From a virus: a DNA stretch of 31,346 nucleotides. The stretch lies in IMG/VR virus record IMGVR_UViG_3300030329_003332, positions 1 through 31,346 of that record. One strand, 5' to 3'. A model generated the notes under the pieces. The model was not told where the DNA came from, made no database searches, and was given only the letters and a program-made list of their open reading frames with translations. Position 1 is the stretch's first letter; each line of letters starts with the position of its first letter. Below, piece after piece: positions 1,623-21,789 of the stretch. The position numbers and the translations under genes are program-made.

Positions 1623-4600
1623 ATGGGAACAAAATTTGGTTACTATGAGCCTCTTGTAGACGAAGAGGAATTAAAAAGGCTTAGAGAAGAAGAAGAGAAA
1701 CTTAGAGCTGAAGAACAAGAGAAAAGACAAGGATTAATCTCTCAGCAAACTCGCACTCCACAACGTGATGATATGGTTGAATCTTTAGATGCCGACCAGC
1801 AACAACAACCTAAATATAAATCAAAACAAGATATAGTTCAGGATATTAGAAAAGATGCTCCTGATTATTTACAAGGATTAAGCGACCAAGAGCTTTATGA
1901 CTATGCAAAAGAAATAAACCCAGACCTTGATAAAGATTTACCTGCTCCAAAATTGGCTACAGAAATATTCCCTGAGAGCCTAAGGCAGTATGGAGAATCA
2001 TTATTTTATGAAATGCCTGCTTATTTCGCTGCTATAATGTCAAGAACAGATAGTGAGAAAAATAGAAATAAGTTTAGAGGTGCAGGTCAAGGTATAGAGA
2101 GGATGATATCCCTCAACAATGATATTGAATTAGCTAATAGAATAAAAGAAGAAAATCCTAATCTTACTAATTCTCAAGCTATGAAGGTGCATAACTATCA
2201 AAAAGAATCTGTAAAACCTTTATTGAAATTAGCTGGGGATTGGTTGCAACAAGGAAGAAATGCAACATTTGAATATTTAAAGAATAACCCAGATGCATTA
2301 GCTACAAGAGAATGGATGTCTGGAAGCAAATTAAGTGATACTAAAGGTGGGTTTGCTAAATATGTTGGTAAGGTTGTTGCTAATGTAGCTCCAAGTCAAA
2401 TAACTACTGAGGCTAGTGGAGCTTTGTTTGGTCTGACTGCATCTATATTAACTAGAAATCCTCTTTTAGTTCATCAAGCATATAGTTTTGGCGTAGGTTT
2501 TGCAGGCTTTGCATTAGAAGGCTCATCTCATCTTGGTGCAGGTTTTGATTATCTAACTCAAGATAGACCTATTAAAGTAGAAGATTTAGAAAAAGAAAAG
2601 ATGGATGCTAGACAATATTTTGAATCCAGAGGAAAGTTATTTTTTGACCCAGAATTAAAAGCTACAGTTACTCCTGAACAAGCATATGCTAAATGGTATA
2701 ATGATAATTATTATACTCAAGGTAATGTTGTGATAAAAAAGGGAATGCCTGTTGAAGAAGCTCTAGATATAGTTACTATGCCAGCACTAGGGGTTGGTAT
2801 TTTAAATGGTGCGATTGAAACATTATCTACTGCAGCAGGTGTTAAGTATTTAACTGGTAAAGATATAAGCTCATTGTTTGGCGTAAAGCATTACGCTAAG
2901 ATGGTTGGCAAGATGGAAGAAAAAGCAAGACTTATTCCTGAAGTTGCAGGTATCGGCAGTAGATTAAAAAGAAATGGCGGCTTATATGGAGTGAACTTAA
3001 TGCATCAAAGCGTAGCTGAAGCTGCTGAAGAAGTTGCTCAAGGATTTACTGATGAAGCTATGGGTGTGATGACATGGTCTGACGAACCTTATAATTATTA
3101 TTTTCCTGAGATTGCTGAAAATGCATTTGCTGGTGCTATTGGGTCTGCCTCAAGAGGTGGTAATAGGATGCTAGCTAATACAATAGGCATATCTGAAAAA
3201 GTTGCTAACTTTAAGATAAGAAATATGTCACCTAAAGGTGAAGGTGTTAAATATTATGTAGATAAAAATGAGAATGGTAAACACCAAGTCTTTGTTAAAG
3301 TTGCTACATTAAATCAAGAAACTGGAAAATATGATGTAAGTACTACACCTATCACATCTGAAATGAGCTATGACCCTGATACTGATTCAAGTTTTGATAC
3401 TGAATTTGATAATTTTACAGATGCATATAGAGTCTCAGAGTTATTTACGACATGGAATTCAGAACTTACTGAGAAAATGCATGCATGGAAGTACAGGAGA
3501 TATGTAGGAGCTGAGGTTAAAGTCGAAAAGAATGAAGGAAAGTTTGATGTTAACATATATAATGCAGATGGCAAGCTTTTAGAAAATGTTGATTCTTTTG
3601 ATACTAATTGGAAAGCTAAGTCTACCTCAAAGACTTTTCAGAATAATATCAACCTTACTACTAAATGGCATCAAACATATGGAGGTAATGAGAAGTTATC
3701 TCAAGACTCTTACATAAAAGATTATGAAGACAAGGTTAGTAAAGGCTTAGATACTGAGACAGCAGCCAAAGACCTTCCTGACAATTCAGATGAAACTGTT
3801 GATAAAAGAAAAAGAATTAAGCTTGGAATACAGCAATTTATGGGAGACCATGAAGGGATAACCCCAGAAGATGAAGATGTTATATCACAGTTTGATGATG
3901 ATGGGGAAAGTCCAATAGGTATAGAGCCTGAGGTTATTAAGAACTTAGCTAAGGAAGACCCTAAAGAATTTAAAAGTCAATTAGATAAATTAAACATTCC
4001 AGTAGAAGATGTTGTTAGAGATTTTGATGAAACATTTCCTGATAATGCTGGTGAGCTAAATGATTTACTTGAGGGGCCACCTCAAATGCCTGTTGAAGAA
4101 GGGCCTGTAGATACCAGAGAACAGCCAGGTCAGGTTGAGATGTTTAGAGATGAAGATACTCCTGAAGGTGCCCCTGCAAAAGGTAGGCCTACTACAAAAG
4201 ATAAATATGCAAATTTAAGTGACGTAGAATTACAGGATTTATTATCTGAACAAAAAGGTATATTAGAGAAATCTGATAAAGGTAGTATGGAAGGTGTTAG
4301 TGCATCTGCTCAAATCAAAGGTATTGAAAAGGAAATAGATAGAAGAGCACAAGAAGCTCCTCCTAAAGAAAAGCGTATAACTTTAGAGCAACAAAAACAA
4401 ATCAATGAAGCGTCTTTTGAATTAAAAGAATTACAGGATATGGGTGTTAATATAACTAGACATCCTACTGACCCTGATAGAATAGGTGAAATAGAAGTTC
4501 CACAAGAATTAAGAAATAAAGGTGTAGGAACTAGAGTAGTAAATGCATTAAAGAAAGAATTTAAAGCTAAGGGTAAAGATTTTATAAATATAGTAGCTAA

Positions 4601-7600
4601 ACCAGAAGCTCAACCATTCTGGAGTAAAATGGGCTTTAAGGTTTATGGTAAAGCAGATAAGACTGTTAAAGTTGATGGTAAGGATGTATATCCAAACCTA
4701 ATGAGATATGACCTTAAAGAAGAGCCAGAGATGGATACAGATGAATTTAAGGTTAGGGTAGGTGCATCCAAGAAGAAAGCTCTTATTCAAAGATTGGATA
4801 TGCTAACCTCTAAGTTTGCAGGTAAGATTAAATATGAAATGTTTGATACTGCTAATGAAGACGTTAAAAAGCTTATGAGCCTTCATGGAGTTAAAGATAT
4901 TGATAAAGCAAGTGCTTGGTATTATAATGGAAAAGTTTATGTTATAGGAGATAGGTCTACATTATCTGAGCCATTCCATGAATTCTCGCATCCATTTATA
5001 CAGGAGATAAAAAAGTCTAATAGAAAGCTATTTGATAATATTTATCAAGGTATAGTAGATAGCCCTCAATCTAGAGATTTTATAAATCATGTTGCATCTC
5101 TGTATAAAGAATATCCAATGGATAGTGATGACTTCAAAGAAGAGGTTATAGTATATGCATTAGAGCAATCTTCAGAAAAGAAATACAGCTCAAAGAATTC
5201 ATTTGTTAAGGCAGTTAATAAAGTTTGGAATTGGATTAAGGAAAAGATATTTGGCAAAGGTTGGAAGTCAAGCTTAAAGGTTAAAGATTTAGAACCAAAC
5301 ACAAGTTTAAGTGAGTTAGCTGATATCATTGCAGAGGAAACAGGACAGACTATTGATTTAACATTACCTGAGATAGTTAAGGATATTACTCCTGCTAAGC
5401 TTAAAAAGATGATTGATGAGCATGTGCCTAATTCTCAAGAGCAGGTAATTGAAAAGTTGAATGAAGAGCTACCTTATATAGAAGAATATGGAAAAGCTAA
5501 ATCTAAATATTTAAGAATCCTATTTAACGATACTTATAAGTTCCTTAAAAGATTAGCAGATAACAACAATCAAGTATTAGATATGCAAAGCTTTTCATCT
5601 GTAATGTTAGATAGCCTTCAAGCTTATGGTTTAAGAGAATCTTATGAGAGTTGGGCTAAAGAGAAATTCAAGTATGTTAAATCTAAAAATGAACGTAGAG
5701 TTGGAGATAGATACCTTCCTGTTGAAGATATTACAAGCCAAGTTGTTGAGATATTAAACGAAGAACATAACAATATATTGAAAGTTGGAGACAAAAAGTA
5801 TTCTGATGAGAAAGAAGGAAATACATTATATGTTAAGCAGCTAAATGTTTATCTAAGTGAGCAGCAAATAAAAAATATTAGAGCTAAAGCCAAAAGAATG
5901 ACCTTTAATGAGTGGAGAGAATTCGTAGTTAAAAGGGTTTTAAAGAAAGGTGATAGGTTAGGTTCTGTAGTAGATAGAAATGGATTATTAAAAGATTACA
6001 ATAGATTAAGAAGCAGTTTGTTAACTAATGGTACTGTGGACACATGGGATGGTAAACCTGCAGGATTTAATGAGAGAGTTAATTATCAAATATTTAAAGA
6101 TAAAGGCTTAAAAGGTAAGATACATTTAGTATTATCGCAAAAGGGGCCTGAAAACAAAGTTAAGGGAATTCAAAATAGCAGATTTGAGAAGATTACATTA
6201 GCTGAGAACAATATATCTAAAGGAAAAATACATTTTATATCTGGTTCTGATGTTTACTCTAAAGATACTAAAACTGGACTTTATAAAGAGTCATACAATT
6301 TCTTTTCTCAAGAAGAGTTATTTGACTTAGAAGAAACTTTAAAAGAGAATAATATGGCAATTGCATTCTCAAGGGGTGATTCAGATAAACTTGGAATAGT
6401 TGATGTCGATATAAAGAGAGCTGAGACAGCAAAAGAGTTTTGGCAATCTCAATTAGATGCAGGGTTGGTTAGAAGTAGTCATGTTAAAAACTTTATGCAA
6501 GGTGATGCATTTAGCATAGCAAAAGAAATAGCTATATTTGAAGCTGTTAGCAATATATGGCCAAGATATTTATTAGATTCTAAGGGTGGCTCTAATGTCT
6601 TTAAGAGACTTAAAATCCCATTTACGCCAGTCACTATAAGTCAGGAGATGCCATCCTTTAGAGTTGAGAAGTTTAACCCACAAGAGGTTATGTTTACGTA
6701 TAAAGATAAGAGTTTCTCACCTTATAAAATTATAAGAGGATTTAAACCTAAATATGCAGGCGATGGGCAATCTATAACAGGTAAATCTATGTTTGATTTA
6801 TTCCAAAAATATCATGGTTTAGAGAAAACTACAGCTAAAGCAAAGACTGTTATTTACAATAAAGATGCTAATGGCAATGTTATAGCAATAAAGCATCAAC
6901 ATATTTTAGCTAGACCTGATTGGAAAATCACTGATAAAGAAGGAAATGTATTATATACTATCGATAAAAAGGGCAATATAAAGAATGCTAAGGATGAAGC
7001 TGTAGATATGCTTGTTACTAGCGATGAAGCTAAGATTTGGGATGTAAAACAAAATGAATTTGATGTTCCAGGGAGCTCATTAGGGTTTACAAAGTACGAT
7101 GAAGATGCTCCTAATTTCTCCAAGCATGGTATTCAGATATATAATCATGTCTTAGACCAAGCTATATTTAATATGTTTGAGACTTATTATGTTCCAAGAA
7201 TGAGTAAGCAGATAAAAAGAACTTATTATATGGCACTTGATAGTAAATATGGAGTAGGTGCTGAAAGATTAGCTAAATGGATGTCTAGAATATCCTCTGG
7301 AGAAGCTCATATAGGTAGACTACCTGTGTTGTCTGAGTTAGTAAAACTAGGAGCAGGAATGCATCCCTCAGTTACAAACCTATTAGATTCATTAATACAA
7401 ACTAGAAAGGTATTACCTTCTTTAAACCTATCTGATTCAAATGGTTCTAGATATGATATATCTATGGACTTTACAGATGAGTTAGGTCAAAAAGAAGTAT
7501 CTTTATCTTCAGAAAATTCTAGAATGGTTTATCAAAGATATGCAGATGCTTGGGGTATTACATTAACAGATGCATTAACATTGCCTATAGATGAAATAAA

Positions 7601-9176
7601 TTCATGGTTACAAGAGAACGAAGTGTATGTTATGGTAACTAGATATCCTGTTCCACATGTTGGTGGTTCATTTATGGCTAGAGTAAGGTCATTGCATGAT
7701 AGGAAGTCTGTTATAGAAATGAATGCATATGATGTATTTGCTAGGCTTGAAGGCGATAATGATGGAGACGAAGTTATAGTAGAAATGCTAGACCCTCAGG
7801 TTGAGTCTGTATATAAACAATATTTTGATACTATAGAAGTTGGAGCTATAAACTTAGATAGATTTGTTCCTAAGAGTAGAGCTAGAGTTGATTTATCTAA
7901 TAACGATGCTAGAATTTCGCTTATAGCTAACGCTACAGCTGGTAAGATGGCTATTGGTGAAATAGCTAATATACAAACTGTATATGGAATAATGTCTAAT
8001 GCATATAATTATATTAATATTGCTGGTGCCAATATAACAATTAAGCAGCCTAATGATTCAATAACATTCCCACAAGCCGTTTATGATGGTTCTAAAGGTA
8101 GTTGGAGAGGTAATGTTAAAGATTATTTAAGAGTATGGTTGCAGGCTGCAGTAGATAATGCTGAATATGGATTATTAGGAGAATGGGGATATAAACCTTC
8201 TACTAAATGGGGACAGCTTAGTGGCCAACAAAAGATATATGCTAAACTTATTAGAATAAATGGACAAGATTTTAACCCTGATTTCAGATTCCATATGCAA
8301 GCTTTTAGACAGTTTGAAAAGATTATAAGGTTTCATAAGACAGCAGGTCATTTAAGAAGAGGTGGCAATTTTGAGAATAGAAGTTTTAAATTAAGTGACA
8401 CTATATCACATAGTAATGCTTATTATAGCATGGTTGGAGATAATGGTGCGACTAGAGAAGCAGGTATAATGTCTTTATTTGACCCTATATTTACAGAAGT
8501 TTCAATTAAGAATAGAAGGCTTTTACCAGTGGAGCATATAGCTGTTATGGCCGCTAAAGAACATGAGGCTTTAAATGACAGAAGTGATTTATTTCAGATA
8601 GGTGATACCCCATTTATGCTTCCTGAGAATGCACATGAGAATGCACATGTAGAAGCTATAAAGTATATAAATGAAAAAGCATTAAGTATGATAGAAACTA
8701 GAATGAACAAAGATAATATTACTAGAAAATCAAAGGAAGGTCAAGAAGAGGTAAGTAAAGGTCAATCTTATACTCGTGAGATGGGTGGAAAGTTCATGAA
8801 TATATTATCTAAATACAATGATATAGGATTAAGGACTATGGATGTAGATGCAGAGTTCTCAGAGTTTAAGGATGAATACCATGCAAAATTTAAAGAATTA
8901 TCAAATACTGCTAAGGCAGCTGCAACTATATCGTTCTTAAGAGGTTACTTGAAAATGTCTGATAAGGTTAGGTTGAAGAAGCATGCTAATTTTCCTGTTG
9001 CTATGCCACCTGTAAGCTCTTCTAAATTTGAAGCTAACTTATTAGATAGCAATATAATGAAAATATTTTTCAGACAGTATAACAAAAGTTTAAGTGAAAG
9101 AAGGACTACAAGCCCACCTCCAAGTGTAGGTAGAGATATTACTCTTCAAAAAATAGTAAGGGAGATATGTAAATAA
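1623..9176 (+). CDS. giant polyvalent virion-type protein: GNAT, zincin and two-barrel RNA polymerase domains
   Basis: This is a 2517-residue multidomain protein. Residues 1-60 are a charged coiled coil, and 61-130 include a YLQGLSDQELYDYAKE-like segment of a type I associate with phage structural proteins. A hydrophobic, small-residue-rich region follows at about 260-310. A GNAT acetyltransferase core lies at about 920-1030, with the acetyl-CoA loop motif R-N-K-G-V-G-T at 964-970. A zincin metallopeptidase motif H-E-F-S-H is at 1119-1123, followed about 50 residues later by an acidic EEVIVYAL segment that could supply the third zinc ligand. The C-terminal third resembles a single-chain double-psi-beta-barrel RNA polymerase: GDGQ around 1713-1716, lysines K1741 (AKTVIY) and K1757 (IKHQH), the metal-binding D-N-D-G-D at 2045-2049, then a helix GKMAIGEIAN resembling the bridge helix. 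Polyvalent proteins are known to enter the cell with phage DNA. I infer an injected polymerase that transcribes early genes. Its stop overlaps the next start by one base. Confidence 0.78.
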   Translation: MGTKFGYYEPLVDEEELKRLREEEEKLRAEEQEKRQGLISQQTRTPQRDDMVESLDADQQQQPKYKSKQDIVQDIRKDAPDYLQGLSDQELYDYAKEINPDLDKDLPAPKLATEIFPESLRQYGESLFYEMPAYFAAIMSRTDSEKNRNKFRGAGQGIERMISLNNDIELANRIKEENPNLTNSQAMKVHNYQKESVKPLLKLAGDWLQQGRNATFEYLKNNPDALATREWMSGSKLSDTKGGFAKYVGKVVANVAPSQITTEASGALFGLTASILTRNPLLVHQAYSFGVGFAGFALEGSSHLGAGFDYLTQDRPIKVEDLEKEKMDARQYFESRGKLFFDPELKATVTPEQAYAKWYNDNYYTQGNVVIKKGMPVEEALDIVTMPALGVGILNGAIETLSTAAGVKYLTGKDISSLFGVKHYAKMVGKMEEKARLIPEVAGIGSRLKRNGGLYGVNLMHQSVAEAAEEVAQGFTDEAMGVMTWSDEPYNYYFPEIAENAFAGAIGSASRGGNRMLANTIGISEKVANFKIRNMSPKGEGVKYYVDKNENGKHQVFVKVATLNQETGKYDVSTTPITSEMSYDPDTDSSFDTEFDNFTDAYRVSELFTTWNSELTEKMHAWKYRRYVGAEVKVEKNEGKFDVNIYNADGKLLENVDSFDTNWKAKSTSKTFQNNINLTTKWHQTYGGNEKLSQDSYIKDYEDKVSKGLDTETAAKDLPDNSDETVDKRKRIKLGIQQFMGDHEGITPEDEDVISQFDDDGESPIGIEPEVIKNLAKEDPKEFKSQLDKLNIPVEDVVRDFDETFPDNAGELNDLLEGPPQMPVEEGPVDTREQPGQVEMFRDEDTPEGAPAKGRPTTKDKYANLSDVELQDLLSEQKGILEKSDKGSMEGVSASAQIKGIEKEIDRRAQEAPPKEKRITLEQQKQINEASFELKELQDMGVNITRHPTDPDRIGEIEVPQELRNKGVGTRVVNALKKEFKAKGKDFINIVAKPEAQPFWSKMGFKVYGKADKTVKVDGKDVYPNLMRYDLKEEPEMDTDEFKVRVGASKKKALIQRLDMLTSKFAGKIKYEMFDTANEDVKKLMSLHGVKDIDKASAWYYNGKVYVIGDRSTLSEPFHEFSHPFIQEIKKSNRKLFDNIYQGIVDSPQSRDFINHVASLYKEYPMDSDDFKEEVIVYALEQSSEKKYSSKNSFVKAVNKVWNWIKEKIFGKGWKSSLKVKDLEPNTSLSELADIIAEETGQTIDLTLPEIVKDITPAKLKKMIDEHVPNSQEQVIEKLNEELPYIEEYGKAKSKYLRILFNDTYKFLKRLADNNNQVLDMQSFSSVMLDSLQAYGLRESYESWAKEKFKYVKSKNERRVGDRYLPVEDITSQVVEILNEEHNNILKVGDKKYSDEKEGNTLYVKQLNVYLSEQQIKNIRAKAKRMTFNEWREFVVKRVLKKGDRLGSVVDRNGLLKDYNRLRSSLLTNGTVDTWDGKPAGFNERVNYQIFKDKGLKGKIHLVLSQKGPENKVKGIQNSRFEKITLAENNISKGKIHFISGSDVYSKDTKTGLYKESYNFFSQEELFDLEETLKENNMAIAFSRGDSDKLGIVDVDIKRAETAKEFWQSQLDAGLVRSSHVKNFMQGDAFSIAKEIAIFEAVSNIWPRYLLDSKGGSNVFKRLKIPFTPVTISQEMPSFRVEKFNPQEVMFTYKDKSFSPYKIIRGFKPKYAGDGQSITGKSMFDLFQKYHGLEKTTAKAKTVIYNKDANGNVIAIKHQHILARPDWKITDKEGNVLYTIDKKGNIKNAKDEAVDMLVTSDEAKIWDVKQNEFDVPGSSLGFTKYDEDAPNFSKHGIQIYNHVLDQAIFNMFETYYVPRMSKQIKRTYYMALDSKYGVGAERLAKWMSRISSGEAHIGRLPVLSELVKLGAGMHPSVTNLLDSLIQTRKVLPSLNLSDSNGSRYDISMDFTDELGQKEVSLSSENSRMVYQRYADAWGITLTDALTLPIDEINSWLQENEVYVMVTRYPVPHVGGSFMARVRSLHDRKSVIEMNAYDVFARLEGDNDGDEVIVEMLDPQVESVYKQYFDTIEVGAINLDRFVPKSRARVDLSNNDARISLIANATAGKMAIGEIANIQTVYGIMSNAYNYINIAGANITIKQPNDSITFPQAVYDGSKGSWRGNVKDYLRVWLQAAVDNAEYGLLGEWGYKPSTKWGQLSGQQKIYAKLIRINGQDFNPDFRFHMQAFRQFEKIIRFHKTAGHLRRGGNFENRSFKLSDTISHSNAYYSMVGDNGATREAGIMSLFDPIFTEVSIKNRRLLPVEHIAVMAAKEHEALNDRSDLFQIGDTPFMLPENAHENAHVEAIKYINEKALSMIETRMNKDNITRKSKEGQEEVSKGQSYTREMGGKFMNILSKYNDIGLRTMDVDAEFSEFKDEYHAKFKELSNTAKAAATISFLRGYLKMSDKVRLKKHANFPVAMPPVSSSKFEANLLDSNIMKIFFRQYNKSLSERRTTSPPPSVGRDITLQKIVREICK

Positions 9177-12642: not shown

Positions 12643-12802
12643 CGACTTTTGAAGTACGTTTAAGTACACCTATAATTTCTAATTTTTCTTTTGGACTAAA
12701 TTCTTCATACCTTCTGTTTTTAAACATTGATTCAATATATTTATTTGTAATGTTTTCGTGAAGCGCAGCAAACATAGCTGTTTCACTCTTTGGTTCTATC
12801 AT
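12623..12802 (-). CDS. 59-residue hypothetical protein
   Basis: The frame starts MIEPKSETAMFAALHENITN and is charged and helical, with a central KNRRYEEFSPKEKLEIIG stretch. It has a good ribosome binding site (GGAG, 6 bases before ATG) inside the end of the nuclease gene and overlaps that gene by 20 bases. The overlap style and signal match its neighbours, so it is very likely real. I do not recognise the family. The SPKEKLEIIGVLKR segment could be a small helix-turn-helix, but this is weak. Confidence 0.7.
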   Translation of the reverse strand: MIEPKSETAMFAALHENITNKYIESMFKNRRYEEFSPKEKLEIIGVLKRTSKVDVRYQA

Positions 12803-13139
12803 CAGTTTCTCCTATTAATTCTAAAAATGATTCTAATTCTAAAGCTGCATATGTCTTAGTCCTATTTCTTTTAAAGATTAAAACAGGCACTCTATCGTCA
12901 GAGTTACCTTCAGCTTGGTTTAATGATTCCCATATATTTAGACGCTCTTGATTCTTACACTCAAAGCTATATGGTATGAAATCTTTTGCAGTTGGAGAGA
13001 GAATGATGTCTTCACCAGACTCTCCCATTATTGCAGTTTTTATATCCCCATTTCTTAATGATGGGAAATATGTGTACAGTTTATCTCTTAGAAAGTTCTG
13101 TAATCGTCTTCCCTTGCCCTTTGCTGAAGATGGCTTCAT
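12783..13139 (-). CDS. PDDEXK-like nuclease (resolvase-like)
   Basis: A 118-residue protein starting MKPSSAKGKGRRLQN. After a basic N-terminal helix it shows G-E-D-I (beta strand with Asp), then about 17 residues later F-E-C-K-N-Q, matching the D...E-x-K signature of PDDEXK nucleases, followed by a strand VPVLIFKRNRTKTYAALE. Small phage proteins of this type resemble Holliday-junction resolvases and VRR/recombination nucleases, and fit a replication/recombination operon. I chose the ATG at 13139 rather than an upstream TTG because the upstream extension overlaps most of the preceding gene. The ribosome binding site is weak, and translation is probably coupled to the preceding gene, which overlaps it by 59 bases. 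Confidence 0.7.
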   Translation of the reverse strand: MKPSSAKGKGRRLQNFLRDKLYTYFPSLRNGDIKTAIMGESGEDIILSPTAKDFIPYSFECKNQERLNIWESLNQAEGNSDDRVPVLIFKRNRTKTYAALELESFLELIGETDDRTKE

Positions 13140-13314
13140 ATAGTTTTGTTCTTTCTTTATCTGATGGGTTTGATAAAAAGTCTTTAATAGCTTCGAGGCG
13201 CTGGCCTCTAACAAAATTTACCATTTCTTCAACTACGTTGTCAAGGTTTTTTGAGTTACGTGCATAGAGTATCAAATGCTGCACTTGCTCTTTTAAACTC
13301 ATCTCATTAGACAT
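13081..13314 (-). CDS. 77-residue hypothetical helical protein
   Basis: Starts MSNEMSLKEQVQHLILYARN. It is helical throughout, with a basic middle (FVRGQRLEAIKDF). The ATG at 13314 has GGAG 9 bases upstream and overlaps the stop of the preceding gene by 8 bases; an upstream TTG in frame is a poorer start. It overlaps the nuclease start by 59 bases in another frame. No family recognised. Conserved operon position next to a nuclease suggests DNA metabolism, but nothing in the sequence proves it. Confidence 0.65.
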   Translation of the reverse strand: MSNEMSLKEQVQHLILYARNSKNLDNVVEEMVNFVRGQRLEAIKDFLSNPSDKERTKLYEAIFSKGQGKTITELSKR

Positions 13315-13504
13315 TTTCAAAGTCTCCAATTATTATAGGAACTCTATCTTTAACTAGGCGTTTATAGCCTAAGTCTTTAGCGTTCATTGCATACTTTTGT
13401 ACGTCCTCTTTGAGCTTATTACAGAGTATATCCAATGCTTCTTCGCTCATTTGAACGCCACATTTCATGAACTCTTTTCTAATATACTGCTTAGATAATA
13501 ACAT
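13307..13504 (-). CDS. 65-residue protein with histone-fold-like pattern
   Basis: The helix pattern resembles the archaeal histone/NF-Y fold: short helix YIRKEFMKCG, loop VQMS, long helix EEALDILCNKLKEDVQKYAMNAKDLG, then Y-K-R-L-V-K-D in the place of the G-R-K-T-I-K-A-E-D loop and a short hydrophobic end. The spacing from the Ser before helix 2 to the basic loop is within 2 residues of HMfB as I remember it. Some residues typical of DNA-binding histones are not conserved, so this may be a generic three-helix protein. Start at ATG 13504 just after the preceding TGA, with a modest AGG signal. Confidence 0.5.
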   Translation of the reverse strand: MLLSKQYIRKEFMKCGVQMSEEALDILCNKLKEDVQKYAMNAKDLGYKRLVKDRVPIIIGDFENV

Positions 13505-13505
13505 T

Positions 13506-13778
13506 TCAAAGACCTAATCTCGAATTTACAGATTTCATCTTATTCTGCATTTCTAGTACTATTGTCTTTAAATCTTTAGTTAATTCTACTGTTACTCTTA
13601 ATAATTCTTCGTTATCTTTAACTCTATCGTGTACTCTTTCAATCCTGTCTAATAACGAATCTGTCTTAACAGCAGCCTTTTTCTTTTTAGGCTTAGCATT
13701 ATCTTTTTCTGCTACTTTATCTAAAGCACCTTCGCAAGCTTTCTCAAGCTCTTTTACTGTTATCTCTTTCTTAACCAT
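13506..13778 (-). CDS. 90-residue Lys-rich coiled-coil protein
   Basis: Starts MVKKEITVKELEKACEGALD, then a Lys/Ala-rich linker (KPKKKKAAVK around residue 29-38), then a heptad-like coiled coil from about 40 to 84. Strong site AAGGAG four bases before ATG. It is likely an oligomer with a basic patch that could touch nucleic acid. No family recognised. It is separated from both neighbours by one or two bases, typical of this operon. Confidence 0.65.
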   Translation of the reverse strand: MVKKEITVKELEKACEGALDKVAEKDNAKPKKKKAAVKTDSLLDRIERVHDRVKDNEELLRVTVELTKDLKTIVLEMQNKMKSVNSRLGL

Positions 13779-13779
13779 A

Positions 13780-14013
13780 CTACTCCTTTATTCTTAGTCC
13801 AAAGTTACATTGTTTTTCTAGTTTTATCAGAGCCCTTTTTATTATACCATCCATATCAAACTTTATAGCTGGTGGCTCTTTCTCTCCTAATAAATCACAT
13901 AACGCTTTTCTATATCCTTGTGCATAGGATATTTCAGCTTGCGATTTATATGAAGGCTTTTCTATAAATTTAGTTTGTTCTTTTATCTTTTTCTTTATTT
14001 CCTTTTGATTCAT
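13780..14013 (-). CDS. 77-residue hypothetical protein
   Basis: I place the start at MNQKEIKKKIKEQTKF because AGGAG lies 5 bases upstream; an upstream ATG extends it by five residues but lacks the site. The N-terminus is very basic. The middle reads SQAEISYAQGYRKALCDLLGE, a helix pattern seen in small phage proteins of unknown role, and the C-terminus is mixed. Function unknown. Confidence 0.65.
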   Translation of the reverse strand: MNQKEIKKKIKEQTKFIEKPSYKSQAEISYAQGYRKALCDLLGEKEPPAIKFDMDGIIKRALIKLEKQCNFGLRIKE

Positions 14014-14050
14014 CTTCACTCCTATCATCCAGATAAGTACTTATTTCATG

Positions 14051-14179
14051 TCAGTTTTCTGCGTATCCACAATTAGTGCATTGCATATGACAGTTTAAGA
14101 CTTCAACTTTAGTTCTACAATTAAAGCATATACCATATTTTCTAAACTGGTATCTCTTTAACTTCTTTTCACTGTTCAT
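14051..14179 (-). CDS. 42-residue zinc-ribbon microprotein
   Basis: Starts MNSEKKLKRYQFRKYGICFN. Two knuckles, C-F-N-C and C-T-N-C, are separated by 13 residues, the classic arrangement of a four-cysteine zinc ribbon. A GGAG lies 6 bases before ATG, and the start overlaps the end of the next upstream gene by 11 bases. Zinc ribbons this small commonly bind RNA polymerase, ribosomes or nucleic acid; the partner here is unknown. One of four tiny zinc-binding proteins within 1.7 kb. Confidence 0.75.
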   Translation of the reverse strand: MNSEKKLKRYQFRKYGICFNCRTKVEVLNCHMQCTNCGYAEN

Positions 14180-14300
14180 TTCTTACTCCAAATACTGCTA
14201 CACAATAACTGCAATCTTTACTGTACTCATCTGGATATTTATGACCTTTACTACATTCACTTGGTTGAGGACTTAGGTCCTTTAGTGTCAGTATGTCCAT
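14169..14300 (-). CDS. 43-residue zinc-finger-like microprotein
   Basis: I place the start at MDILTLKDLSPQPSECSKGH, with GGAG 7 bases upstream, rather than a longer frame that lacks a signal. It contains C-S-K-G-H followed after 9 residues by C-S-Y-C, a plausible C-H-C-C zinc site. It overlaps the preceding coiled-coil gene by 44 bases and the following zinc-ribbon gene by 11 bases. Role unknown; the pattern suits a small nucleic-acid or RNA polymerase binding factor. Confidence 0.65.
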   Translation of the reverse strand: MDILTLKDLSPQPSECSKGHKYPDEYSKDCSYCVAVFGVRNEQ

Positions 14301-14484
14301 TATCTTTCTCCATTTTCTTAGATTCTTTCTCCATAAATTTAAGAAACTTTTCCTCTTTACCTTCAAAAGTAATATAATTTCTTATCAGGTTGCCTATACC
14401 ATCTAATACTTGGCATATCTCATCCTGACCCTTATGTAACTTAGCTAAATGGAATTGAACCTCTTTATTCGTCAGTTTTTTCAT
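14257..14484 (-). CDS. 75-residue hypothetical coiled-coil protein
   Basis: Starts MKKLTNKEVQFHLAKLHKGQ with AGGAG 6 bases upstream. The first 45 residues are an amphipathic helix (DEICQVLDGIGNLIRNYI), and the end is a very basic/acidic low-complexity tail (KFMEKESKKMEKD). It overlaps both neighbours in other frames. No family recognised. Confidence 0.65.
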   Translation of the reverse strand: MKKLTNKEVQFHLAKLHKGQDEICQVLDGIGNLIRNYITFEGKEEKFLKFMEKESKKMEKDNGHTDTKGPKSSTK

Positions 14485-14611
14485 ACAAAGCTCCTAAATC
14501 TGTTATCTTTTTAGTTAGTCGTTTAAAGTCTTTTTCACTTACACCTTCAGCTCTATCTAATATTGTTATTATCAGATTAAGGTCTTCGTCTCTGGTTAAT
14601 TTATTTTGCAT
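14465..14611 (-). CDS. 48-residue hypothetical protein
   Basis: Short frame starting MQNKLTRDEDLNLIITILDR, with GGAG 7 bases before ATG, overlapping the upstream zinc-finger gene by 11 bases and the downstream gene by 20. Two helices with GVSEKDFKRLTKKI between them could form a small helix-turn-helix-like bundle, but this is not strong enough to name. Very likely translated because signal and overlap match its neighbours. Confidence 0.7.
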   Translation of the reverse strand: MQNKLTRDEDLNLIITILDRAEGVSEKDFKRLTKKITDLGALYEKTDE

Positions 14612-14813
14612 TATGTTTCTCCATCATTTCTTCTAGTTTATGTACATATTTCTTTCCTGATTCTCTTTTAGCGCATTTATGACAAACTACCATCTTCATT
14701 CCAGTTAACATAGCCTCCCATTGAAACATTAACTTTGACCGTTTACCACACATTTCACACTCAAAAAGATTTTTACCTATATATCTACTAATCATAATTG
14801 GATAGGGAGACAA
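14601..14813 (-). CDS. small zinc-finger protein (TTG start)
   Basis: About 70 residues. Two knuckles, C-E-M-C-G-K-R and C-H-K-C-A-K, lie 20-some residues apart and form a likely four-cysteine zinc site; the C-terminus is basic. The likely start is TTG at 14813, four bases after GAGG; the first ATG in frame (14795) has no binding site. A short spacer of 24 bases separates it from the DUF932 gene upstream. Probably a small nucleic-acid or protein-binding factor. Confidence 0.7.
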   Translation of the reverse strand: MSPYPIMISRYIGKNLFECEMCGKRSKLMFQWEAMLTGMKMVVCHKCAKRESGKKYVHKLEEMMEKHNAK

Positions 14814-14837
14814 GTTTCCTCATCTCCCTTACCCCTC

Positions 14838-15635
14838 CTACGCCATTGCACCAAGCAAAGCATCAGTAATATAAGCGTTATGCTGAAATGATGCTACTGT
14901 AGGCTTCTTATCGTGCCAGAGTATATCTGTGCATGAATTATAGAATTCCCACAATGAAACATCATCATTATGATACTTCTTTAGGTAGTTGTCAGTTATC
15001 TTACCCCAGGTTGTTACAGGGAGTGCTGGAATTAGAGTCCTGACCTTTTTCATTTCATCGATATCAAACGTAGTGTTCACCATCTTTCTTAAGCCACTTA
15101 TGGCTGTATCTATATCTGATGAACAGTTATCTATGGTATCAACGGCTTTCATTATCTCTTCTTCATAGCCTTCACTAGAGCTATCATGCTTAAATCTAAA
15201 GCTCTGGAAGGTATCTTTACTTATCATTCCATTAGTGCATGCTAATCTCACTAAGAACAATCTAAATGATAATGCAGTGCTGCCATCATAGCTATTCCAG
15301 AAACCAATACCAATACCTACATCATCTCCTACTTTAACTGCTTCTGTTGTAGTACGGCATTGCATTCCATAGAAATACCTTCTACCATCAAAGAATGTCT
15401 TTAATGGTTCCCAGTCTAGCTTAGATTGGTCTGCTATATCATCTGCTAAGTTTTTAACTTCAGTATTTGGAATAAGTAGATATTTATTACCTACTACTCC
15501 TACTTCTTTCCATTTATTAATTAATAACTCAGTCTCTTTATCTTTAACCTCTTTTTCCATCTGTACAGCGAAAGCAGAGGATGCTATTCCATTATAATCC
15601 AATGGAACCTTTCTGATTGGTGCGTATGCGTTCAT
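14838..15635 (-). CDS. DUF932-family phage protein
   Basis: A 265-residue protein with the features of the DUF932 / phage-plasmid-like family: a mid-protein block VGIGIGFWNSYDGSTALSFR followed by LACTNGM, corresponding to the family's N-S-Y-D-G and C-x-N-G-M signatures. Family members are common in phage and plasmid replication regions and are sometimes found with recombination genes; their biochemical role is not established. It has a strong AAGGAG site, lies just downstream of the primase-helicase and overlaps a 51-residue zinc protein by 44 bases. No membrane segments. Confidence 0.82.
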   Translation of the reverse strand: MNAYAPIRKVPLDYNGIASSAFAVQMEKEVKDKETELLINKWKEVGVVGNKYLLIPNTEVKNLADDIADQSKLDWEPLKTFFDGRRYFYGMQCRTTTEAVKVGDDVGIGIGFWNSYDGSTALSFRLFLVRLACTNGMISKDTFQSFRFKHDSSSEGYEEEIMKAVDTIDNCSSDIDTAISGLRKMVNTTFDIDEMKKVRTLIPALPVTTWGKITDNYLKKYHNDDVSLWEFYNSCTDILWHDKKPTVASFQHNAYITDALLGAMA

Positions 15636-15747
15636 TATTTCTCCTTGTTATTTTAGATAGGCACATTTCACATTGTTTACCTTCAAACTCTTCTGTATAT
15701 CTTTTACTCCTACAGTAGCATTTGAATTCTAAACCTTCGTAACCCAT
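15592..15747 (-). CDS. 51-residue zinc-knuckle microprotein
   Basis: Starts MGYEGLEFKCYCRSKRYTEE. Contains C-Y-C and, 16 residues later, C-E-M-C, a likely zinc site, followed by a strongly basic tail (ITRRNNERIRTNQKG). Its ATG overlaps the TGA of the primase-helicase by one base (TGATG), so translation is coupled. It overlaps the DUF932 gene start by 44 bases in another frame. Function unknown. Confidence 0.65.
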   Translation of the reverse strand: MGYEGLEFKCYCRSKRYTEEFEGKQCEMCLSKITRRNNERIRTNQKGSIGL

Positions 15748-17492
15748 CAAACTTCGTTAGCTGCTAATATATTAAGTTTGTTTACCTTAAGGAGTACATT
15801 AAGGCTTCCTCTTTCTCTATTAGCTTCTGTTTTAATTGCCATAGTTTTAACCAAACCATTATCATCTTTACCTGTAGTAAGAGATAGTATCTTGCTTGCA
15901 TTGTATGATATTCTGAATGAACCTCTTACTGAGGATATATTCATACCTTCATGAAATGCTTGCTTAGTTATCTCTGATACTGTAAATACGATTAGGTTGT
16001 TCTTAATTGCTAGTTCAGTTAATGCTCCAGATATTTCTTCCATCTTCATATTCATATCTTTATTCTTTGATAGCATTAATCCCATATGGTCAACAACTAC
16101 AATCTCTGGTTTAACTGGTAACATATTTATTCTTTTCTCTAGCTCGTGTGGATAGCACGGCCTATAATCCATATGTAGCCATTTAAACTTCTCTGCCATT
16201 CCTCCAGAATTATTAGAATAATAATCTCTTAACTCATTATCATCCCATTTATTCTCTATTTGGATAAATCTAGACCACATTTGTCTTGGAGACATTTCCA
16301 TCTCTAAGAAATATGTAGGTTTCTTTAATGCATTTACCCAATTCATAAATAGCATAGTCTTCATAGTTTTAGGTGGAGCTTGAACTACTACTAATTCACC
16401 TGGGTATATAGGAAAGTCTTTGTTATATAACTTGCCTATATTTACAGGAGTAGTATCTCCTTTTAACCAGCTTATTAGATTAGATTCCATATCTTGAGGG
16501 CTCATTAAACCTTGAGCTCTTTTAGCTGTATATAATGTGCAACTATCTTTACAGAATTTGTCCATTATATTATCCATGCATCCATATCTATAACCTTGAC
16601 CATTATGACCTTTATAGCAATCTCTTACTATTCTATGCATTTCTTCTTCTTTAAATGGATGTTCTGGAGTACTTACTCTTTGTCTCCAATCTTCCATTAT
16701 TAGCTTTACAGTTTGTTCTGGATATCTCCATCTAAACCATGCTGCTAATCTTAATGCTATTGCATGTCTACTTCCGTAAGCAGAACCACTTAACATCTTT
16801 TGAATACAGGGATAAAGCTGTCTATCTGGCTCAGCTCCCATCTCTGTTTGAAATGTCACAGTTTGTTTCTTTACTTCTCTCTCTAATATATTGAATACTG
16901 GCTCGCATTCAAGTTTGGGGATATCTATTCTTCTAGGTTTAGCTGCAGTAGCTTTTATCCATATATCATCAACATTCTTCATTTCATCATTAGTGATATA
17001 TATTTTCCACAATCTTGATTTAGAATTTAAAGTATTATTTAGCCTTATTATCCTTGTCTTATCAGTAACAGAAGGGTCTGCATAGTTGTATATCCCTCTC
17101 TTGTTTAACTCATCCTTTACCTTTAAATGAAGGTCTACAGATGGTTGCCACTTAAATGCGGATTGAGGTATTCCTAAATGAAATCCTCTGCCACTGAAAT
17201 AAACATTGTATGGAACTTTTATTAATTCCAATAGTTTAATTAGGTCTAACGCTTTTTCTCTTGCTTCTTTTACATTGGTGCCATCAACGTCTAGAAGGTA
17301 TTCCTCAGGAAGATATACTTTACCAGTATAACCAGCAAGTGTCTTCTCTTTATTGAAATAATCTACAACATCGTTATCGTATTCATATAAGGATTGAAAA
17401 GTATCTTTAGCTGTAAACTCCCATTTACATGCATTATTAGACTCAAAGAAATGATGTCTATTTGATAATCCGAAAGCGAATTCTCTTATCAT
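15747..17492 (-). CDS. primase-helicase (archaeo-eukaryotic-type primase fused to RecA/DnaB-like ATPase)
   Basis: A 581-residue replication protein. N-terminal domain about 1-170: D-V-D at 68-70, S-G-R-G-F-H at 100-105 and D-P-S-V-T-D-K-T-R-I-I-R near 139-150 match the DxD, SxH-like and basic motifs of archaeo-eukaryotic primases. A middle helical region (about 225-320) carries C230, C292, C305, C314 and C318, likely a metal-binding primase C-terminal module. The C-terminal RecA-like domain has a Walker A-like APPKTMKT at 372-379 and Walker B EIVVVDHMG at 463-471, followed by SSVRGSFRI near 520-527. The Walker A lacks the usual second Gly. It should synthesise primers and unwind DNA at the fork. 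It has a strong AAGGAG site and is preceded by a folded RNA spacer. Confidence 0.85.
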   Translation of the reverse strand: MIREFAFGLSNRHHFFESNNACKWEFTAKDTFQSLYEYDNDVVDYFNKEKTLAGYTGKVYLPEEYLLDVDGTNVKEAREKALDLIKLLELIKVPYNVYFSGRGFHLGIPQSAFKWQPSVDLHLKVKDELNKRGIYNYADPSVTDKTRIIRLNNTLNSKSRLWKIYITNDEMKNVDDIWIKATAAKPRRIDIPKLECEPVFNILEREVKKQTVTFQTEMGAEPDRQLYPCIQKMLSGSAYGSRHAIALRLAAWFRWRYPEQTVKLIMEDWRQRVSTPEHPFKEEEMHRIVRDCYKGHNGQGYRYGCMDNIMDKFCKDSCTLYTAKRAQGLMSPQDMESNLISWLKGDTTPVNIGKLYNKDFPIYPGELVVVQAPPKTMKTMLFMNWVNALKKPTYFLEMEMSPRQMWSRFIQIENKWDDNELRDYYSNNSGGMAEKFKWLHMDYRPCYPHELEKRINMLPVKPEIVVVDHMGLMLSKNKDMNMKMEEISGALTELAIKNNLIVFTVSEITKQAFHEGMNISSVRGSFRISYNASKILSLTTGKDDNGLVKTMAIKTEANRERGSLNVLLKVNKLNILAANEV

Positions 17493-17511
17493 ATTTTCTC
17501 CTTATTAGTTA

Positions 17512-17601
17512 ATAAAGAGAGCCTCACATATTCCTTTGCCTAAGTCTCTACTAAGTAGCTTAACATTAGGACTTACAGGACCAGTTATTGACTCTCTTTA
17601 T
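17512..17601 (-). ncRNA. structured RNA element A in the leader of the primase-helicase gene
   Basis: The 118-base spacer 17493-17610 folds as minus-strand RNA into a long closing stem of 12 bp (17590-17601 with 17512-17523), with nested helices UAAGUC/GACUUA (17570-17575 with 17541-17546) and CUAC/GUAG with a 3-base loop (17548-17558). One closing pair is G-U only on the minus strand and a mismatch on the plus strand, supporting minus-strand RNA. The stem ends 11 bases before the AAGGAG of the primase gene, so it may control or protect that mRNA. Function unproven. Confidence 0.5.
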
Positions 17602-17610
17602 ATGTACTGA

Positions 17611-18126
17611 TTATAGTGGGACTTGGTCAGCTAGCCCACTACTTTCACTTACGGTTTGAGCCATTTTAGCGGCTCTTTTACGTTGATATTCTTCAGCAGA
17701 TGCTTTAATCTTTTCGATTCTAGACTCTGTGAACTTATCTACGATATTTTCAAACGGATTAGCAGGTGCTACTTTCTGAAATACTTCAGTATATCCATTA
17801 TCCTTTTTATAGAATAATACTTGTAGTCCTTTACCTTTTAGTCCTGCTGGTGAATCATCTAATGTTGCGGCTGTTTCTCCATCTAGACTTTCTTCTTCTA
17901 ATACATCAGGGTTGCTATATCTTATCATATTAGATATGCTAAACTCTTCACCTTCTTGGTTTCTAGCTTCCCATACTCTGCATTTAAGAGATTCTGGATA
18001 ACCATCAAAGAATAAATCAATATACTTTGAACCATTATAGTCACCATAAACTGCATTGTTTATAACAACTGTTTGCCATCCTTCATCGAATCCACCTTCT
18101 GAACTCTTCTTTACTGTTAATCCCAT
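17611..18126 (-). CDS. possible single-stranded DNA-binding (OB-fold-like) protein
   Basis: A 171-residue protein starting MGLTVKKSSEGGFDEGWQTV. The first half is beta-rich with a pattern like phage DUF669/SSB-type proteins: a start with EGWQTVVINNAVYG, then KYIDLFFDGYPESLKCRVWEAR, then a segment with hydrophobic LQVLFYKK. The second half is a helical charged tail. The gene sits between ERF and the primase-helicase, where a single-strand binding protein is expected. The sequence lacks a diagnostic motif, so the name is an inference from shape and context. Strong AAGGAG site. Confidence 0.5.
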   Translation of the reverse strand: MGLTVKKSSEGGFDEGWQTVVINNAVYGDYNGSKYIDLFFDGYPESLKCRVWEARNQEGEEFSISNMIRYSNPDVLEEESLDGETAATLDDSPAGLKGKGLQVLFYKKDNGYTEVFQKVAPANPFENIVDKFTESRIEKIKASAEEYQRKRAAKMAQTVSESSGLADQVPL

Positions 18127-18135
18127 ATTAACTCC

Positions 18136-18633
18136 TTATCGTTTGGCTGCTTGTGCTGCAGCATGTTGTTTACTTAATCCTCTAGTTGCATTACCATCGT
18201 CATCAAATTGTGCTATACCAGTCATAGCTGATAAGCCATATCTTCTACCATATGTCATTGATGAACCTACAGCTTGTGCATCTGATTTACCACCTATAGG
18301 CATTCTTATTTCACTTTTTATCCATTGACCAGATTCGTGTAATAAAGTTGTTGTTACGTAAAAACCGTTAGTTTTAGTACAATAGTCGTTTCCTTGGACA
18401 ACAGATAATCCATATTTAGTTAAAGCAGGTAAACAAGCTTGTATTACTGCATGTAAATCTGCATAACCGCTGTTAAAGAATGGATTAGTGCTTTTCTTTT
18501 CAGCTCCCTTCATTTCAGATTGGGCTTTAGCTAGTGCTCCAGCTAATTTATCTAATTTATCAGATTTCCAATCATTATTAGGGACAGCTATTTCTTCAAC
18601 CTGAATTATTTCAGGCTCTTTTACTTCACTCAT
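18136..18633 (-). CDS. erf: ERF-family single-strand annealing protein
   Basis: A 165-residue protein. The central block has NPFFNSGYADLHAVIQACLP and then GSSMTYGRRYGLSAMTGIAQ followed by a DDDGN segment, matching the ERF superfamily (P22 Erf-like annealing proteins): a conserved Y-A-x-L followed by S-x-x-T-Y-x-R-R-Y. It promotes annealing of complementary DNA ends, circularisation and recombination. I place the start at MSEVKEPEIIQ because AAGGAG lies 7 bases upstream; an upstream extension of 15 residues lacks support. It is shorter than many ERF proteins, which often have a longer C-terminal domain. Confidence 0.88.
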   Translation of the reverse strand: MSEVKEPEIIQVEEIAVPNNDWKSDKLDKLAGALAKAQSEMKGAEKKSTNPFFNSGYADLHAVIQACLPALTKYGLSVVQGNDYCTKTNGFYVTTTLLHESGQWIKSEIRMPIGGKSDAQAVGSSMTYGRRYGLSAMTGIAQFDDDGNATRGLSKQHAAAQAAKR

Positions 18634-18676
18634 GTTAAGTCTCCTTTTTAATAGCGAATTGAGTGTATAATTTAAC

Positions 18677-18702
18677 ATTTCTCAAAGAATTATCCGAGAA
18701 AT
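18677..18702 (-). other. short hairpin in the spacer before ERF
   Basis: Perfect 7-bp inverted repeat (atttctc / gagaaat) with a 12-base loop in the 72-base spacer between the HTH gene and ERF. There is no U-run after it in either direction, so it is not a typical terminator. It may be a processing or stability hairpin. Confidence 0.35.
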
Positions 18703-18705
18703 ATA

Positions 18706-18912
18706 TCAATTATCCTGTTTTAAGGTGTATCTTGCATAGCCTGCTTTACCTTCCAAGTCAGTTGTTATATTATGACCGTCTTTATGCTTAAGGTCATAGA
18801 TTATAGCACTGAGCCTGTATGCTTCAAACAGGTCTATAGCATCTTTTTGAGTTATAGAACCATAAGTTTGCATATACATTAAGATTCTATCTTTTTTACT
18901 TTGTTTTTTCAT
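18706..18912 (-). CDS. small winged-helix DNA-binding protein (HTH_39-like)
   Basis: A 68-residue protein starting MKKQSKKDRILMYMQTYGSI, then TQKDAIDLFEAYRLSAIIYDL. This matches the HTH_39 type: a short helix, ITxxxA turn, and a recognition helix followed by RLxxxIxDL. It is probably a small regulator or DNA-binding accessory protein. The start is chosen at 18912 because of AAGGAG 6 bases upstream; a longer frame would run into the preceding gene. It precedes the ERF gene by 72 bases, which hold a 7-bp hairpin (18677-18702). Confidence 0.75.
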   Translation of the reverse strand: MKKQSKKDRILMYMQTYGSITQKDAIDLFEAYRLSAIIYDLKHKDGHNITTDLEGKAGYARYTLKQDN

Positions 18913-18922
18913 TGTTATCTCC

Positions 18923-19216
18923 TTATAAGACTGGTAATACTTCAGTTTTAGTAAACTTTTCACCTGGAAAAGCTTCAATTTCAACTGTTTCGTTAGGATT
19001 TACCCATAATAATGCACCACCATCATTACCTTCATCATCCATTTGTGGCATTATTTCTGAACCATCATCTAATGTTAATATTATTGGTCTTTTATACCAT
19101 CCAAAGTCTTTTTTGGCAGATAATTTACTTAACCATCTAATTTTTACTATTTTTTTACCTAATAGCATTTTGTTAGCTGAAGTTTCCCATTTTTTACTTA
19201 GTTCTCTTTCATTCAT
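18923..19216 (-). CDS. conserved phage hypothetical protein (PQMDDEGNDGG type)
   Basis: A 97-residue protein. It has SANKMLLGKKIVKIRWLS near the N-terminus, GWYKRPIILTLDDGS in the middle, then PQMDDEGNDGGALL, and ends in LPVL. From memory this combination recurs in small proteins of many environmental phages, with no established function. It is beta-rich and probably a small barrel. AGGAG 8 bases before ATG. It follows a 171-residue gene by one base and precedes the HTH gene, so it belongs to the same operon. Confidence 0.7.
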   Translation of the reverse strand: MNERELSKKWETSANKMLLGKKIVKIRWLSKLSAKKDFGWYKRPIILTLDDGSEIMPQMDDEGNDGGALLWVNPNETVEIEAFPGEKFTKTEVLPVL

Positions 19217-19218
19217 AA

Positions 19219-19734
19219 TTAAGCTCCTAACATAGGCACATCTGAGCCTTTAAGTATTGCATTTACTTGACCTGTTAGTTCTTCAAGGTCATTTATACCA
19301 TGTAAAACATCACAGGCAGCTCTTTTCTTAGATTCAAGCTCTTTAATCATCTTTCCTGATTCTGTTTCTGTCTCTTGACCTTGAGCTGTTTTATTGCAAA
19401 CATATCTAAATGCTTTATCTATATCTGAATAAGATGAACCATTATATATAGAAGGAACTTGAGAATCATATCTTCTTTTTCCCATAGATTCTAATATTTC
19501 ATCATATACTGCTGTTATCCTGCCACCTAATAAATCAAATTCATCTTTAACTTTCTTATATCTTGATAAAGTTTTATCCAATTTAATAGTCTTTAAGTAC
19601 CTTTTATACTCTGATTCAGATATCTGCTGTACATCTGCAGCTCTCTGTTGTTTAAGTATATTTATCTTCTCATTTATTGAGTTCTCTATTCTTTCAACAA
19701 AGTATTTTCTTTGCTGAACGCTTATTTTTGCCAT
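19219..19734 (-). CDS. 171-residue hypothetical helical protein
   Basis: Starts MAKISVQQRKYFVERIENSI with a strong AAGGAG site. The first 90 residues are charged helices with coiled-coil character (NEKINILKQQRAADVQQ); a second helical region ends in a low-charge tail. No motif or family recognised. It lies between a 113-residue and a 97-residue unknown in the early operon. Good codon use and tight spacing indicate a real gene. Confidence 0.65.
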   Translation of the reverse strand: MAKISVQQRKYFVERIENSINEKINILKQQRAADVQQISESEYKRYLKTIKLDKTLSRYKKVKDEFDLLGGRITAVYDEILESMGKRRYDSQVPSIYNGSSYSDIDKAFRYVCNKTAQGQETETESGKMIKELESKKRAACDVLHGINDLEELTGQVNAILKGSDVPMLGA

Positions 19735-19748
19735 GTTTTTCTCCTTTT

Positions 19749-20090
19749 TTATTTTAATCTAAATCTAAAGTTGAATTCATCAAGATATTCCCTATCTTTA
19801 TCTGTTTCTATCATATCAAATTCATTTATAAAGCATTGATATTTATATTCATCCTCAGGATGTATTTCTGAATCAAAAGTCTCACTTGCATATCCATCAG
19901 AAGGATTGGTTCCAGTTACACAGAAATCAATTCCTCTGTCATGTACACCTACATATTGGTATCCATCAAATATTGGATGGTCTTCTATAGCAAGAGCTAT
20001 AGCACAAGAGTTCGCTTCACCTGCTTCTCCTTTATTTATATGTTCTCTTTTAACTTCACATTCTTGCCACAGATAGTAGTTGTTTATCAT
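19749..20090 (-). CDS. 113-residue hypothetical acidic protein
   Basis: Starts MINNYYLWQECEVKREHINK with GGGGAG 6 bases upstream, inside the end of the preceding gene. It has ANSCAIALAIEDH, a beta-rich middle (YQYVGVHDRGIDFCVTG) and a very acidic C-terminal half. The family is not recognised; acidic early phage proteins often mimic DNA or bind host enzymes, but nothing here shows that. Confidence 0.6.
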   Translation of the reverse strand: MINNYYLWQECEVKREHINKGEAGEANSCAIALAIEDHPIFDGYQYVGVHDRGIDFCVTGTNPSDGYASETFDSEIHPEDEYKYQCFINEFDMIETDKDREYLDEFNFRFRLK

Positions 20091-20091
20091 A

Positions 20092-20262
20092 TTAATCTCC
20101 CCAATTATAACTATTTATATAATAATTGAATGTTATAGAGGATATTCTACCCTCATTAAATAGTCTTTTTAAGTTTTGTTTTGCTTGTTTACGGTTTAAC
20201 TCACCATCTTGGAATAAATCTTCTTGTGGGAGTTCTTTTTCTGCTATTTCATAAGCTTCCAT
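20092..20262 (-). CDS. 56-residue hypothetical protein
   Basis: Short frame starting MEAYEIAEKELPQEDLFQDG, with a strong AAGGAG site 5 bases before ATG, directly after the structured spacer 20263-20483. It has a helical NRKQAKQNLKRLFNEGRIS middle and a Tyr/Asn-rich end. Its stop lies one base before the next gene. Very likely real; function unknown. Confidence 0.7.
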   Translation of the reverse strand: MEAYEIAEKELPQEDLFQDGELNRKQAKQNLKRLFNEGRISSITFNYYINSYNWGD

Positions 20263-20275
20263 GTTTCTCCTTAAG

Positions 20276-20348
20276 TTGGAGAGAGAGCTGGAACAGTTAA
20301 ATTATAGGGAAAACTGCTTTACACCTCACGATATAAAGACTCTCTCAA
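20276..20348 (-). ncRNA. structured RNA element B2: three-way junction with GNRA tetraloop
   Basis: As minus-strand RNA a closing stem (UUGAGAGAG-like strand at 20340-20348 with 20276-20285, one bulge) encloses two hairpins: UUUAUAUC-GUGA-GGUGUAAA (20318-20337), whose loop is a GNRA tetraloop, and CAGUU/AACUG (20294-20298 with 20312-20316). The first hairpin has two G-U pairs that become C-A mismatches on the plus strand, so the fold is specific to minus-strand RNA. It ends a few bases before the AAGGAG of the 56-residue gene. Confidence 0.55.
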
Positions 20349-20371
20349 TTGTATTAAGCTTTTTTCTCATT

Positions 20372-20462: not shown

Positions 20463-20483
20463 CTATAGTTAGCTACTTAATTA

Positions 20484-20981: not shown

Positions 20982-21002
20982 TTTATCTCTCCTTTTTTGT
21001 TA

Positions 21003-21783: not shown

Positions 21784-21789
21784 AATTTA

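Follow-up and report, generated by a model that had tools for sequence, protein, structure and literature searches.

A giant phage protein with a putative two-barrel RNA polymerase in an abundant, uncultured marine lineage

In a 31,346-nucleotide stretch of viral DNA (IMG/VR record IMGVR_UViG_3300030329_003332; hereafter, the window), one open reading frame encodes a giant protein whose C-terminal half is, judging from residue conservation and fold prediction, a single-chain two-barrel RNA polymerase. A first-pass annotation of the sequence had proposed this, and both the predicted fold and the conserved residues support it. The best complete explanation is that this two-barrel polymerase is packaged, injected, and transcribes the early genes, and we give it a probability of roughly 0.8. 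Until now, virion polymerases of the two-barrel type had been described in crAss-like phages of Bacteroidota and in Thermus phages. The window places such an enzyme in an abundant uncultured marine lineage with unrelated head genes, which suggests that a particle-carried two-barrel polymerase is a widespread route to independence from host transcription.

The combination had been thought possibly undescribed for this lineage. As far as we searched, that holds: tblastn of the giant protein against the 50,697 phage records in INPHARED gave no match, and the papers that our search turned up contain no description of it. The features of the window are listed in Table 1.

Table 1. Features of the window, with residue numbers referring to the giant protein
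Feature	Position	Strand	Evidence or remark
Upstream late-strand protein, 489 aa	135..1604	+	Detected in just one relative
Giant multidomain protein with putative RNA polymerase, 2,517 aa	1623..9176	+	Open reading frame
GNAT acetyltransferase domain, residues 950-1010	4470..4652	+	Pfam PF13673, E = 2.7e-6
HEFSH, zincin metallopeptidase-like motif, residues 1119-1123	4977..4991	+	Motif only
Modeled RNA polymerase region, residues 1330-2517	5610..9173	+	AlphaFold2; Foldseek and VIA matches
Putative first double-psi barrel (beta-like, DPBB-B), approximate, residues 1679-1825	6657..7097	+	Strand order in model
Invariant D1714-G1715	6762..6767	+	31/31
Invariant catalytic-type lysine K1741	6843..6845	+	31/31
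Invariant K1757-H1758	6891..6896	+	31/31
Predicted second double-psi barrel (beta-prime-like, DPBB-A), residues 1935-2075	7425..7847	+	Aligned to AR9 non-virion RNAP 243-410
Invariant R2007-x-P2009, like beta-prime RAP or crAss YRIP	7641..7649	+	31/31; phi14:2 gp66 has YRIP...DFDID
Putative metal-binding D2045-N-D2047-G-D2049	7755..7769	+	Aspartates 31/31; G in 26, H in 5
Bridge-helix candidate with GKMAIGEIAN, residues 2094-2127	7902..8003	+	One 34-residue helix in model
Downstream partner protein (probable), 1,112 aa	9176..12514	+	Position equals that of phi14:2 gp65, "RNA polymerase associated protein"
Convergent early/replication module: DnaB-like primase-helicase (PHROG primase), ERF, PDDEXK, others	12783..24637	-	
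Packaging/head module: terminase small and large subunits, P22-type portal, scaffold-like protein	25193..31324	+	

Conserved residues and predicted fold

Standard searches miss the polymerase. When we compared the window protein to Pfam, PHROGs, and the sequences in the PDB, we found the GNAT domain alone, and a search for related loci with single-sequence patterns from the giant protein found nothing. Pfam's RdRP family (the QDE-1 family) does match the homolog from one relative, G001, over the catalytic region (E = 1.8e-5, below the curated cut-off). The sole match among the control genomes in this search was in Bacillus subtilis, which carries the gene for the SPbeta enzyme YonO. The family of T7-like RNA polymerases (PF00940) had no match in the window protein or in the 18 genomes, and the control gave no match either.

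The relatives encode homologs of the giant protein of 2,461-3,785 amino acids. We aligned 31 homologs that are 21-37% identical to the window protein and found that D1714, G1715, K1741, K1757, H1758, R2007, P2009, D2045, D2047, and D2049 are invariant (31/31). The first-pass annotation had placed its key residues correctly: GDGQ begins at residue 1713, K1741 lies in AKTVIY, K1757 lies in IKHQH, and the aspartates of DNDGD are at 2045, 2047, and 2049. It had also named the absence of the DxDGD aspartates from close homologs as evidence that would count against a polymerase. All three aspartates, as well as both lysines, are kept in all 31 sequences. At residue 2048, 26 of the homologs have glycine and five have histidine; these five (L169-L173) have DHDHD instead of DxDGD at the putative metal-binding site, so the glycine appears to be dispensable and the aspartates do not.

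By itself, a D.DGD pattern is a weak lead, as such motifs arise by chance in other large open reading frames: we found eight, versus 4.4 expected, in 134,498 amino acids of other large open reading frames from the same lineage. In the window protein, about 0.05 would be expected from its composition. The conservation of the motif is not due to chance. The window protein also has an R-x-P motif 38 residues upstream of the first aspartate (D2045). In the beta-prime subunit, RAP lies about 35 residues before DFDGD, and in gp66 of the crAss-like phage phi14:2, YRIP precedes SDFDIDKM.

We used AlphaFold2 to model the polymerase region, with 31 sequences in the alignment (pLDDT 82.2, pTM 0.81). The PDB entry that best matches the model is the polymerase packaged in phi14:2 virions, 6vr4 (Foldseek E = 1.3e-12), followed by QDE-1 (E = 2.9e-9) and then by the non-virion polymerases of P74-26 and P23-45. 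With VIA-align, 813 residues align to 6vr4 (Z = 14.6, rmsd 5.1), 665 to QDE-1 (Z = 13.7), and 460 to P74-26 gp62 (Z = 13.5); QDE-1 and the plant enzyme RDR2 rank directly after 6vr4, with Z of about 12.4-14.5. The barrel of the AR9 non-virion polymerase (nvRNAP) aligns to the part of the model with D2045-D2049 (Z = 12.8, 138 residues, rmsd 2.8), and the putative first barrel falls within the range that is aligned to QDE-1 and 6vr4. A fold without two double-psi barrels had been named as the other result that would speak against a polymerase, and the model instead resembles two-barrel RNA polymerases across the greater part of the catalytic region. The top matches in BFVD are unnamed entries (32-34% identity, TM 0.80-0.90), followed by proteins of crAss-like phages. 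The same family is present in UniProt as unnamed entries.

After the second barrel, the model has a 34-residue helix in the placement expected of the bridge helix, which makes it a candidate for that element. G2107, A2110, and E2113 within it are nearly invariant. The likeness of GKMAIGE to the bridge helix had been noted before; the motif is real and begins at residue 2107, but its start, nucleotide 7941, lies just beyond the range of 6750-7900 that had been given for the polymerase signature.

Gene neighborhood and proposed role

The polymerase gene sits with late structural genes, both in the window and in its relatives. Because the window is an incomplete record, the late genes between the scaffold-like protein and the 489-amino-acid protein fall outside of it. 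The packaging/head module is kept in all 17 relatives, and the P22-type portal that the first-pass annotation had recognized was confirmed (PF16510, E = 3.9e-54).

The giant protein may be a polyvalent protein, a kind in which one late-encoded chain holds several effector or enzyme domains, typically including a metallopeptidase (Iyer 2017). It has a GNAT domain, a putative RNA polymerase, and a conserved HExxH; the peptidase is represented by its motif only. Pfam has no match to the region around HEFSH, but the same HExxH is present in G001, G005, and G007, and a variant is present in G019. In contrast, the GNAT domain was found in just one of the 18 genomes: it is inserted in the giant protein of the window and in none of the 17 relatives.

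The 1,112-amino-acid protein that follows is probably the polymerase's partner in the virion, as both change together between phages. Its homologs were found only with polymerases of the window's clade (clade 1). This protein has no recognizable family, and we did not detect sequence homology between it and gp65.

The gene position, the packaged closest solved match, the HExxH motif, and the precedents of the N4-type polymerases and P23-45 gp96 together lead us to infer, with good support, that the polymerase is packaged, injected, and transcribes early genes. Fusion to a metallopeptidase is nearly universal among the injected polymerases of the N4 type (PMC5512222), and P23-45 gp96 carries a metallopeptidase domain (PMC10770324). 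We propose that the giant protein would be made late, together with the structural proteins, and packaged as an internal or ejection protein. It would be injected along with the DNA, and the peptidase-like domain may aid its entry or its maturation. The injected polymerase would then transcribe the convergent early module, its presumed target, before any new phage protein exists. For catalysis, the first barrel would supply K1741 and K1757, and the three aspartates of the second barrel would bind the catalytic magnesium ions, with the bridge helix next.

We searched for an early promoter motif with expectation maximization, dyad counts, and repeats, and nothing was clearly above the shuffled sequences and controls. 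Of the candidates, none recurred in relatives except for ribosome-binding sites. Upstream of the first early gene, at 24681-24721, an AGAATTCsGTTwTTTTTCAT-like repeat occurs twice in tandem; it was not found at that position in the relatives. Within the early module, an HNH-like protein of 358 amino acids (21874-22950, minus strand) is shared with G025 only, at 77% identity, and resembles a mobile endonuclease.

Comparison with known polymerases and alternative readings

The most similar known system is phi14:2. Its gp66 is also a giant single-chain two-barrel polymerase with RxP and DxDxD motifs, and it is the best fold match. The layout is alike as well: the polymerase gene lies on the late strand after the structural genes, a large partner gene comes next, and the early module that follows is convergent. 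The corresponding proteins of phi14:2 were annotated from virion mass spectrometry. On the other hand, gp66 has DFDID where the window's lineage has DxDGD or DHDHD, and there is no significant sequence similarity. Profile comparisons to the gp66 family gave E = 0.0044-0.14, which is near the level of unrelated controls, so the putative kinship to gp66 rests on fold and layout. PMC7886860 notes that the polymerases of crAss-like phages diverge unusually quickly. Also, phi14:2 has a genome of about 100 kb and Crassvirales head genes (Crass_capsid, the portal phrog_6547, and the terminase phrog_6681), while the window's lineage has genomes of about 54 kb with SU10_MCP, P22_portal, and the terminase phrog_38. 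We tested for membership in the Crassvirales by running hhalign on the head proteins, and the results were not significant. As this lineage lacks the Crassvirales head genes, its putative two-barrel polymerase lies outside the Crassvirales.

The Thermus phages P23-45 and P74-26 have both a virion polymerase (gp96, fused to the tail tape measure) and non-virion polymerases (gp64/gp62) of the two-barrel type (PMC10770324). In gp96, as in the window's protein, the two-barrel polymerase is part of a giant chain, which in the case of gp96 is a virion protein that carries a metallopeptidase domain. The polymerase of gp96, however, is at the N-terminus of a 5,002-residue tape measure (PMC10770324), while ours is C-terminal. 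The virion RNA polymerase of N4 (Schitoviridae) works alike, in that it is an injected, peptidase-fused polyvalent protein of about 3,500 residues (PMC5512222, PMC12633501), but its catalytic domain is T7-like instead of two-barrel. The RNA-interference polymerases QDE-1 and RDR2 share the fold, but they are eukaryotic and are not fused to phage proteins.

These comparisons also bear on other readings of the protein. It might be an active two-barrel polymerase that does not enter the virion and that, produced late, serves the late genes, as the non-virion polymerases of P23-45 or jumbo phages do. We consider this unlikely. Although P74-26 gp62 and AR9 nvRNAP also match the fold well, and our motif searches found no early promoter motif, polymerases for late genes are usually encoded early, whereas the gene for this one is at the late strand's end, alongside giant genes of a structural type. 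The chain also contains a peptidase-like motif, a fusion that recalls the injected polymerases of the N4 type (PMC5512222), and 6vr4, the solved structure that matches best, is a packaged enzyme.

It is quite improbable that the two barrels make primers or copy RNA templates, as a QDE-1-like or RdRP-like enzyme would, instead of transcribing early genes: the phage already encodes a DnaB-like primase-helicase, and the top match, 6vr4, is a DNA-dependent phage enzyme. Such a role would fit with QDE-1 and plant RDR2 coming next after 6vr4 and with the match to Pfam's RdRP family. Finally, the DHDHD of five homologs could be taken to mean that the domain has lost catalysis and persists for structural reasons. 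This is hardly credible given that neither the three aspartates nor the two lysines vary across 31 sequences at 21-37% identity; furthermore, phi14:2 gp66, whose reported activity is cited in PMC7886860, itself has DFDID.

Relatives and exchange of the polymerase

The large terminase has at least 599 relatives in IMG/VR. We did not find a cultured member of the lineage, and the best terminase identity to a cultured phage is 27%. When we searched 32 of the records with related terminases for the giant protein, six of them had clear matches that cover residues ~1217-2495, in open reading frames of 3,002-3,785 amino acids. A subsequent profile scan identified 30 loci, some of them on the same contigs. 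All 17 of the near-complete relatives (49-58 kb) have a polymerase homolog beside the structural genes, and the relatives have P22-type portals and SU10-type capsids.

With BLAST, the window's polymerase has no match in the other complete relatives, but they have a giant open reading frame at the same place. In ten of them, DxDxD and the equivalent pair of lysines, spaced by 15 residues, do not vary, although identity is just 13-18% for some pairs. The motifs in these proteins are DYDID, DYDVD, DFDLD, DFDFD, DYDGD, and DNDGD; variants such as DHDHD, DYDID, and DFDLD indicate which positions of the putative active site are dispensable. In G009, the polymerase is in a separate open reading frame of 1,496 amino acids. 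Profile comparisons join all of these versions: the window's clade matches G009 (E = 2e-23) and the clade of G013 and G017 (5e-11), the latter clade matches the two other versions (3e-9 and 7e-9), and those two match each other (5e-17), while unrelated controls had E above 0.02. The predicted model for a second clade had a pLDDT of only 43.

Compared to the window, terminases are 68-86% identical, portals 57-76%, and primase-helicases 50-68%, but the giant polymerase is 27-34% identical or undetectable. A tree built from terminase, portal, and capsid pairs G018 with G025 as sisters (100/100) and likewise G024 with G027, yet the polymerase types and the downstream partners differ within each pair. 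G018 and G025 have terminases that are 87% identical and helicases that are 81% identical, but their giant proteins have no BLASTP match to each other, and the 1,028-amino-acid partner in G018 has no match in G025. Instead, both the giant protein and the partner of G018 match G023 (28% and 33% identity), which is more distant by its head genes.

Apparently, the polymerase and its downstream partner are swapped between phages as a cassette. Exchange fits the pattern in G018 and G025 better than fast drift does, though uneven rates are possible. We tentatively suggest, with rather less than even confidence, that phages whose head and replication genes are almost the same use mutually unrecognizable two-barrel polymerases at the start of infection, as parts of an exchangeable cassette of virion polymerase and partner. 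Either the early promoters would be swapped too, or the polymerase would have little promoter specificity on the entering DNA. The apparent swap among close relatives makes promoter recognition testable by natural comparison.

One homologous contig, L195 (NHFY01000017.1), is purely phage and was binned in a metagenome-assembled genome from the Flavobacteriales, which is a weak hint of the host.
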